Positions 29,945 through 64,000 of a stretch of 64,000 nucleotides of DNA are shown piece by piece. The stretch is from the NCBI GenBank assembly GCA_017506865.1, contig JAFCMP010000077.1, positions 1 through 64,000 on the forward strand, read 5' to 3'. Source of the stretch: Tribonema minus (Eukaryota > Sar > Xanthophyceae > Tribonematales > Tribonemataceae). The notes under the pieces were generated by a model. That model was not told the origin of the DNA, made no database searches, and was given only the letters and a program-made list of their open reading frames with translations. Position 1 is the stretch's first letter. Each line of letters opens with the position of its first letter. The position numbers and the translations under genes are program-made.

Positions 29945-32900
29945 TCACCAATGTCTCCGCGGCACCGGCGTGCGCGGCGACGGCGCAGGACTTGAACCGG
30001 GACTCGACAAGGGACTCGACCCGGGACTCGACCCGGGACTCGAAGTCGGACTCGCGGAGCTCGGCCCGCGCGCGCGCCAGTTCGCGGCGGCGGCGGCGGC
30101 AGCAGCGAGCGGCGATCGCGCCGCGCTGAAGCGCGCGTTGCCGCGTGCCGCCGAGGGCCGCGCGCCGCCGCCGCCGCGCGTCGCGGCGGCGGGGGAGTAG
30201 TCCTCGCTGCTGCTCGCGCCCGCCGCCGCGCTGCTGCGGTCGGACATGACGGAGGGCTCGTCCTCCTCGCGCAGCCCCTCCAGCGGCGCGTGCGGCGACG
30301 CGTGCGCCGACGCGCGCTGCTGCCGCGGCGTCGCGCCGCCGCCGCCTCCGCCGCCGCCGCCGCCGGCCGCGGAGCCCTGCCGCTGCAGCAGCAGCCCCGA
30401 CGCGCGCTGCTGCGGCGGCGCGTCCGCCGCCGCCGCGCTGCCCGCCGGCGGCGACGGCGGCGCTCCGCCGATGCTGCCGCCGCCGCTGCTCACGACGTGA
30501 GGCCACAGGTGCGGCTTGCTGACGCTCTGGCGCCGTATCAGCCCCGCCGTTCGCCGCCGGCTCATGAAGCGCGTGATGCTGCCACCGCCGCCGCCGCCGC
30601 CGCCGCTGGGCGAAGGAGGGGCGGCGGCAGCGGCGGCAGGCGATGCTGCAGCGGCGGCGGTGCAGCGTGGGCTGCCGCTGCTGGTGTTGCTGTCGTCGCT
30701 GGGCACGGCGGTGCCGTCGACTGAGGGTGCTGCGGCCTGCATTGGTGTCACGATGTGGTCCGCGATGCGCGATGCGAAGTGCCACAGTAAGTGCCACATA
30801 AAGTATCGTTTGATTCAGAGAGAACAGGCTGACCTTCAAAAGATTGCAGTTTTCGTCATGTAATGCACAACATACTGCAAGTTGAGGTACGTGACTACTG
30901 TGTGACGCACCGTGCTGGCGGGCACCGTGGTCACCTCGGTGCAGCAGAGGACATGTTTACATCAACTTGCAGATTATCATCATGAAACACACAACATACT
31001 GTCAACTACTTAGATTTGGAGTACGTGCTAATGAAACACACAACATACTGTCAACTACTTAGATTTGGAGTACGTGCCATCTCACGCACCGTGCCGGCGG
31101 GCACGGTAGTCTTCTTGGCGTAGAAGAGGACGTACGCAGGCGCGCCGCTCTGCAGTTCCCAGTCATGACATGCACAAACATACTTTTTCAGGTCAAAGGC
31201 AAAACACATCAAACTTGAAGTACTTCAAAATGCATGCCATCTCACGCACCGTGGTGGCGGGCACTGTGGTCATCTTGGCGTAGAAGAGGACATGCTGACA
31301 TTTAATTTGCACGTTTTCAGTCATGAAATGCACAGCGTACTCCACATTACATCAACATACGGCAAGTTGAAGTACAGTAGATGCCTACGTGACGCACCGT
31401 GCTGGCGGGCACCGTGGTCATCTTGGCGTAGAAGAGGACGTATGCGACACCGCTCTTTTGCTCGACTAAGTCAAAACAAGATACTTGAAGTTGAAGTACG
31501 TGCCATCACATGCACCGTGCTGGCGGGCACGGTGGTTGTCTTGGCGTAGAAGAGGGCGTACAGACATTAAATTGCACATTTGATCGCACTATGCCCAATG
31601 TACCCCACGGCAAAGCAACACACTTCAACTTGAAGTCACACGCACCGTGCTGGCGGGCACGGTGCTCATCTTGGCGTAGAAGAGGACATATGCGGCGCCG
31701 CTCTGCAGTTCGCAATTATGAAATGCACAACATCACGACGAAGTCGAAAGCAGCAACACACATCAAGTTGAGATACGTGACCATTGTGACGCACCGTGCT
31801 GGCGGGCACAGTGGTCATCTTGGCGTAGAAGAGGACGTAAGCGGCGCCGCTCTGCACGCGCGCCGCGGGAACGGTGCGCACGTCCGCGTCGTCAAACTGG
31901 TTCCACTCGCTCGACACACGGCTGCGTGCGAACGCCGTGTAGTGCCCGCCCCACAGGGAGCCGTGGTGATTTGCGACCTGAACGAGTGGGAAAGAGGGGT
32001 GGTGGGGGGGGGGGCACACAACATCAGGAAAGAGGGGGGTATCTCCGCTTAGCATCAGGAAAGAGGGGGGGGCAAGGAGGATGAGCAGTGCATGTTTGAT
32101 GTGTCTCATATTTTGGAGGCAACAAGTCCATTCGCCTGACATGCGGCTGCGCGCGAACGCCGTGTAGTGGCCACAGGGACCTGTGGTGATTTGGAACCTG
32201 AAAGAGGGGGGGGGGGGGGGAAGCAGGGGGGCCATTGGGCACGGGATGTTCTACAGATCTCGTTGCTGTTGGATGTAACGTGGTGGTCCGCGACCTAAGG
32301 GGGGGGGGGGGGGGGGGGGGCAGGGGCTGGTGGTGCTTCAAATCAACTTAACTTGATGTTGCACCTTCATTGTATACTTGAAAGCACATTGATATGCATT
32401 GAGTCAAACAGTGGAGCCCAACTTCACATCTGCGCAGAAGTAGTCCCGTGGGCTGCTTCCGTAGCCCGTCGGTCACGTCAGCACGACAACTTCACTTTTG
32501 CACCTGACATACGTAACTGCTGTAACTGTTGAAGTCACCACCCCAAACTGACGTGCAAGTGCACTCACCGCAAACACACCTTGATGCTTGCACCTGACAC
32601 ATGCTCAATATTGAATTCGATATCGAGCATGTGGTGCAAACTTCAAGTTATGCTGGAGGTTGGAGCGGTAACTTACGCGCAGCGTGAGCAGCCCGCAGCG
32701 CGACGCGCTGTTTGCGGTGAGCCTTCGCTTCAACTGGAACATCAACTTGAGCTTTGAGAGGGTGGTGACACCCCAAAGTTCAAGTGTATGTTCAAGTTGA
32801 AGTGTGGACTCACTGCAAACAGGTCGTAGTCCGGCGCATTGCGCTGCGGCTGCTCAAATAGCCCGGCGCTCGCCGCTGTAATGTCCAGCACAATTTGATT

Positions 32901-64000: not shown

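Follow-up and report, generated by a model that had tools for sequence, protein, structure and literature searches.

Local tandem duplication at exon edges as a probable route of intron lengthening in Tribonema minus

Introns in Tribonema minus are probably lengthened, and scattered with decoy splice sites, by pervasive local tandem duplication of stretches of about 150 bp acting together with purifying selection. Transposons are often credited with the growth of introns; here, in gene after gene, the lengthening appears to come from local tandem duplication together with selection on coding sequence. We regard the process as one of general local duplication that is neither directed by splicing nor carried by a transposon, with intron lengthening as one of its outcomes. 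The analysis starts from what we call the window, the whole 64,000-nucleotide stretch of DNA under study, which comprises bases 1-64000 of contig 77 in a genome of 158.2 Mb (554 contigs, 59% G+C).

Results

Comparison of the window with itself yields 106 direct local repeat pairs that make up 22% of its length, and the one block-shuffled version of the window gave none. Tandem Repeats Finder returns many of these arrays as well. Arrays at exon edges occur on both strands of the window and in several genes, and a preliminary description of this DNA, which had placed them in the introns of at least five genes, was right that they are real and lie on both strands; it has to be amended in that two of these genes also carry arrays built from the stop codon and the 3′ flank. 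Most copies differ from one another by several to 35 per cent, and their ages are mixed, ranging from exact copies to copies that are about 65–70% identical. Specifically, a 49-bp unit is present twice in tandem at 100% identity, and exact runs of 21–233 bp occur at four places. The coexistence of near-exact tandem copies with copies at 65–70% identity indicates that duplication has been long-running, and the near-exact copies within this one assembly suggest that it is probably still under way. The earlier view of a process that is repeated, tandem and of many ages is borne out by these comparisons.

The reductase gene of the preliminary description is an aldo/keto reductase gene of ten exons on the plus strand (42422..56790, ends approximate), located by tblastn of homologs P0010-P0030. 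Exons 1–5 lie at 42422-42724, 45104-45172, 46447-46596, 48838-48924 and 49686-49793, and exons 6–10 at 51129-51259, 52995-53042, 54189-54350, 55524-55658 and 56635-56790. A query joined from eight of the exons shows 56–58% identity over 99% to brown-algal and chrysophyte reductases, and exon 1 by itself gave no match in a protein search. The named eukaryotes among the best full-length relatives are Discosporangium, Scytosiphon, Laminaria and a chrysophyte (Ochromonadaceae); we take the first three to be brown algae and the last to be a chrysophyte, and group them all as ochrophytes.

Array spans account for roughly 6.5 of the 14.4 kb between the first and last reductase exons, exon parts included. 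Exon 1 is preceded by an acceptor-edge array with three copies of the segment start (42043..42473) and followed by a donor-edge array with six copies of the exon end, one of them partial and five with a GTACAT-like donor (42670..43982). The acceptor-edge duplication at exon 48838-48924 (48643..48846, from self-comparison) is seen as one weak copy with a junction-centred probe (25 vs 24) and is absent with an exon-only probe; next comes a donor-edge array with a 110-bp unit (48870..49165). Two copies of CAG plus exon start stand before exon 49686-49793 (acceptor-edge array, 49390..49707), the donor edge of which is also duplicated (49728..49926). Ahead of the used exon start at 51129 are three acceptor-edge copies, at 50676 (weak), 50832 and 50985 (50676..51186), and the donor edge of the same exon, 51129-51259, carries seven to eight copies of the exon end, most of them with a GTGAG donor (51208..52452). 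Likewise, there are three donor-edge copies at exon 54189-54350 (54264..54796), three acceptor-edge copies at exon 55524-55658 (54984..55606), and two clear copies and one weak copy at the donor edge of exon 56635-56790 (56735..57209). One further array, at 46863..47433, lies wholly within a reductase intron, away from the edges and free of coding match. An inverted repeat of about 129 bases and 91% identity (43404-43527 / 43702-43830), situated in the region of the exon-1 array, overlaps a coding-like open frame at 43385-43789.

The other named genes were identified with Pfam in three of four cases: the protease is a ubiquitin carboxyl-terminal hydrolase (UCH), the CDP-alcohol phosphotransferase and the WD40 gene keep their names, and the ‘cupin’ reading frame has no Pfam match. 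The UCH gene (31792..38899, minus strand) was recognized with the Pfam UCH profile, which four of its exon pieces tile in order (profile positions 1-32, 47-109, 142-203 and 208-254). All of its arrays are on the minus strand. The donor edge of exon 31795-31977 has six copies of the exon end with a GTGCGT-like donor (30867..31856), that of the exon ending at 34024 has four copies (33398..34102), and a donor-edge array with a 115-bp unit consists of two full copies and one partial copy plus GTGA simple repeats (34892..35232); at the exon starting at 37000 the acceptor edge is duplicated (36910..37175), with loss of the AG in the copy. A UCH exon end is also found as an inverted copy (73%) beside its direct copy (window 32672-32765 / 32924-33026), a fold-back duplication that may hint at template switching.

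The CDP-alcohol phosphotransferase was assigned by a match of its joined exons to PF01066 at 24.9 bits against a cut-off of 22. Three copies of its exon ending at 24825 form a donor-edge array on the plus strand (24732..25275), in which the exon parts are 92–98% identical and the intron parts can hardly be aligned. In the WD40 gene, two exons of which match WD40 in Pfam, the largest array repeats the coding end and 3′ flank in an 86-bp unit, with up to six copies of which four have TGA (60517..61079, minus strand). This TGA is probably the true stop, because the last WD40 repeat of the exon is already complete two residues upstream of it. The gene also has an acceptor-edge duplication (61468..61721) and a donor-edge duplication (61883..62181), both on the minus strand. 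The ‘cupin’ frame, on the same strand, has a stop-codon array of three copies with TAG, one of the three being partial (16422..17122), and an acceptor-edge array of four copies of CAG plus exon start, three of them with GAGCTG (17251..18658). Because a stop codon is copied in 60517-61079 and in 16422-17122, these two arrays are 3′ flank and not intron; the preliminary description, which had counted both genes as intron cases and may have meant either kind of array, fits their splice-edge arrays but not the largest WD40 array or the ‘cupin’ 3′ array. The span that it gave for the phenomenon, 30900-62035, leaves outside both the CDP-alcohol phosphotransferase (about 23–26 kb) and the ‘cupin’ frame (about 17 kb).

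At 19 edges (10 donors, 7 acceptors and 2 stop codons), a 60-base probe found copies that outscore every one of the unrelated 2.5-kb control stretches (up to 60); the outer side of each edge was searched in this way and the inner side was checked separately. The acceptor at 48838 is marginal among them, with a score of 25 against a control maximum of 24. Donors gave 1–8 matches per edge, some of which are merely simple GTGAGT or GTATG repeats, acceptors gave 1–4, and the two stop codons gave 6 and 3. Because these edges had been picked beforehand from the self-comparison, the result of 19 of 19 says nothing about how frequent such copies are. When all 20 ends of the ten reductase exons were examined without selection, 11 had outward copies, one of these being weak (24 vs 22), and none had inward copies.

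Beyond the window, we sampled 16 preset 10-kb stretches of the genome (L004-L019) and called coding segments in them by codon bias. Copies of 3′ ends lay downstream in 20 of 79 cases and upstream in 2 of 82, and copies of 5′ ends lay upstream in 21 of 82 and downstream in 4 of 79. The arrays therefore extend to random parts of the genome, as had been expected, and outward copies accompany 41 of 161 coding-segment ends, about a quarter, which does not establish the ‘most introns genome-wide’ that had been named as support. When the window, the 16 random stretches and four further loci (L020-L023) are combined, the 131 coding segments have 3′-end copies downstream in 28 cases and upstream in 2, and 5′-end copies upstream in 25 and downstream in none; overall, 53 segment ends have been copied outward and 2 the wrong way, and copies of the two kinds of end are about equally common (28 vs 25 of 131). 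Repeats in the interior were found in 8 of the 131 segments. Profiles and alignments across the edge show that the duplicated unit spans coding and adjoining non-coding DNA, the non-coding part being hardly alignable in a few arrays.

Arrays are not confined to the edges. Among 106 arrays in 264 kb, 60 touch a coding edge, up to 45 have no called coding sequence and 1 is wholly coding. These labels rest on codon-bias calls of coding sequence, and 45 of 106 is too high because, of the 15 arrays labelled ‘non-coding’ in the window, at least five (34892, 50755, 51208, 54264 and 55121) are known edges. The median unit length is 148 bp at edges (quartiles 122–186) and 139 bp where no coding sequence was called (102–181), and both medians carry the same mislabelling. 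Hence the notion of a process specific to exon-intron junctions is not supported, since arrays of about the same unit length also arise at stop codons and wholly within non-coding DNA. When the coding map was rotated, 29.3 ± 3.9 edge arrays were expected (maximum 41 in 300), compared with the 60 observed. By our own reasoning, this twofold excess is about as large as would follow from selection on the retained copy; it also fits some targeting.

The differences among copies bear on how the copies have been constrained. In the coding part of the window arrays, 100 changes private to displaced copies fall at codon positions in the proportions 28/35/37, with 70 nonsynonymous (N) and 30 synonymous (S), and the 70% nonsynonymous share is close to the 75.6% expected (p = 0.20). 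The eight changes private to the copy attached to the exon are all at third positions (0/0/8) and all synonymous (0 N : 8 S; p = 1e-5), and the contrast in N:S between attached and displaced copies is significant (Fisher p = 1.4e-4). Gapped columns were dropped in this test, and both counts leave out 21 differences (8/1/12) from arrays with a single copy, which could be assigned to neither side. At the protein level, then, the displaced copies look neutral, and the retained copy in the window is constrained. Codon-bias segments, the ends of which are imprecise, did not reproduce this contrast between attached and displaced copies: in the random stretches the attached copy had 15 N : 11 S and the copies 41 N : 21 S, and in the window 3 N : 4 S and 51 N : 23 S. 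Splice dinucleotides are retained in 40 of 44 copies, whereas the bases next to them would predict 36.0 (p = 0.07), and we claim no selection on the splice sites of copies from this figure; stop codons are retained in 6 of 8 copies, with 6.0 expected.

Exon and intron parts of the units have diverged unequally. Over 68 pairs in the window arrays, pooled K is 0.12 in the exon part and 0.30 in the intron part, and gap events per bp number 0.006 and 0.062. By our own reasoning, constraint on the parent could by itself account for roughly a twofold difference between exon and intron, which the window arrays exceed. In a uniform comparison the K ratio has a median of 1.77 for 20 edge arrays and of 1.38 for 10 non-coding ones, these 10 being the analysable ones among the 25 of 45 that entered. 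This shrinkage suggests that much of the exon-part excess may be due to ascertainment and parent constraint. Single arrays nonetheless reach ratios of about 9 (the phosphotransferase array and one in L011), and for arrays with ratios near 9 gene conversion is a candidate cause.

Several other elements were noted. A dispersed element of about 100 bases, 69–96% identical among copies, occurs at seven places in 5 of the 16 random stretches (L006:5233-5340, L006:1982-2051, L011:1587-1676, L012:5997-6100, L012:4450-4557 on the minus strand, L014:2578-2679 and L015:3219-3320), with weaker matches in L010, L019 and the window (33246-33293, minus strand). At the five loci searched there was no Rfam match above the gathering score and no tRNA; short retroposon, introner-like piece and widespread coding motif are all conceivable identities for the element. 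The four loci L020-L023 (contigs 90, 179, 144 and 223) contain protein kinase frames, several of them apparently intronless, and are nearly free of arrays (0–3.4% covered). L020 and L021 are 94.7% identical and L022 and L023 are 93.3% identical, the members of each pair lying on different contigs, and these loci may stem from a giant-virus insertion or from recent segmental duplication, or the contigs may be allelic. The pairs are uninformative on copy number because they hold almost no arrays and carry kinase frames of which several are apparently intronless; likewise, genome matches to PF00069 gave few exon edges because many of the best ones are one uninterrupted frame. Short telomere-like stretches of CCCTAA/TTAGGG are found in introns and other DNA of the window (33492-33538, 53080-53108, 58038-58063 and about 43650). 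A plasmid search gave no match.

Discussion

It is informative to consider these observations in light of a simple sequence of events. Stretches of mostly 100–190 bp would frequently be duplicated in tandem, by slippage, template switching or unequal exchange at the DNA level. Duplications that break a coding segment would presumably be purged by selection, as only 1 of the 106 arrays is wholly coding; duplications that straddle an edge would be tolerated because one of the copies stays continuous with the remainder of the exon. The retained copy would be the first at a donor or stop codon and the last at an acceptor, and the displaced copy, having lost its coding role, would be free to mutate and to be duplicated again, giving rise to arrays. 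In this manner introns and 3′ flanks would grow by edge repeats that carry decoy splice sites while the protein stays untouched, with splicing at the first donor and last acceptor, as judged solely by the continuity of the protein with its homologs. One can imagine a stronger version, an edge-duplication ratchet that provides a large share of the intron sequence in this lineage, in which introns are largely fossil exon edges, the spliceosome has to keep to the first donor and last acceptor out of several nearly identical sites in the same exon context, and conversion by the functional exon keeps some copies alike; we consider this version doubtful.

Several other explanations can be weighed against general local duplication with selection. 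One is that duplication was followed by gene conversion, such that the constrained exon end overwrites the copies as their intron parts drift. The phosphotransferase array, with its highly similar exon parts and scarcely alignable intron parts, is what this would produce, but the median effect in the uniform comparison is modest, and there is no effect in the ‘cupin’ stop array or in several arrays of the random stretches; we consider it unlikely. Splice-directed copying, in which a spliceosomal or transcript-based process (reverse splicing or RNA-templated repair) places an exon end and its splice site into the intron, would explain why edges hold twice the arrays expected under rotation (60 vs 29.3) and why identity in some arrays, such as those of the phosphotransferase and reductase exon 1, falls sharply just past the splice site. 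However, stop-codon arrays share the same form, no coding sequence was called in up to 45 of the 106 arrays, the units of which are about as long, and copies of 3′ and 5′ ends are equally common, and we find such a process quite improbable. The thought that selection keeps the copies as functional cassette exons or splice decoys gains something from the retention of splice dinucleotides (40/44) and from exon parts outlasting intron parts in several arrays. Yet the changes in copies are spread evenly across codon positions, 70% of them alter the amino acid, splice sites are not kept clearly better than the bases around them (p = 0.07) and several copies are truncated, all of which makes this reading very improbable.

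It is also worth considering whether the arrays come from outside the local sequence, or from the assembly. Introners are over-represented in aquatic eukaryotes (PMC9860276), which speaks for insertion of an introner or another transposon. Nonetheless, a 285-base array unit (42681-42965) searched against the 158-Mb genome hit, among the best candidates, three places that are all local, which supports the earlier opinion that this is no dispersed transposon. In addition, 19 of 24 array stretches were unmatched elsewhere in 264 kb; the remaining five gave 20 pieces, of which 12 belong to the dispersed element of about 100 bases and 8 are short, and the array units derive from the adjoining exon. 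We give insertion scarcely any credence. The same holds for an assembly artefact: the arrays are known from one assembly, but most copies differ by several to 35 per cent, and their changes carry a pattern of selection that false duplication would not create.

The process leaves behind copies of graded age, which opens its rate and direction, and the length of its units, to measurement. The arrays also amount to a natural experiment on splice-site choice, as several similar donors occur within one intron, each behind 40–50 near-identical exon bases. For gene finders that rely on splice motifs and coding bias, such genes are possibly mis-annotated.

Among the titles and opening lines of abstracts returned by searches of a PMC open-access set, which excludes most subscription papers, none tells of a genome in which repeated copies of exon edges make up the introns. 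Related phenomena are nevertheless known. In tandem exon duplication with alternative splicing, an exon is repeated in tandem inside an intron; the present arrays are similar in that exon sequence is tandemly repeated within introns, and differ in that the copies are partial, one-sided and non-coding by the codon-position test. Intron gain by tandem duplication appears in single cases (PMC4974935), a review (PMC3443670) and a Drosophila study (PMC2891723). In the potato RdRp gene, one tandem duplication spanning a junction created a new intron (Ma et al. 2016, PMC4974935). There as here, the duplication crosses an intron-exon boundary and a piece of exon with splice signals turns intronic; in contrast, it is existing introns that grow longer here, time and again and at donors as well as acceptors, and copies of stop codons arise too. 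The model of Rogers (1989), as related in PMC4974935, PMC3443670 and PMC2891723, has an exonic AGGT duplicated to form both ends of a new intron. It likewise draws intronic sequence from local tandem duplication, whereas the unit in T. minus holds a splice site, and the arrays a place in an intron, that already existed. The feature of many intron-altering events per genome is shared by introners (Gozashti et al. 2022, PMC9860276); these are dispersed related introns, whereas the copies described here are private to each exon edge.
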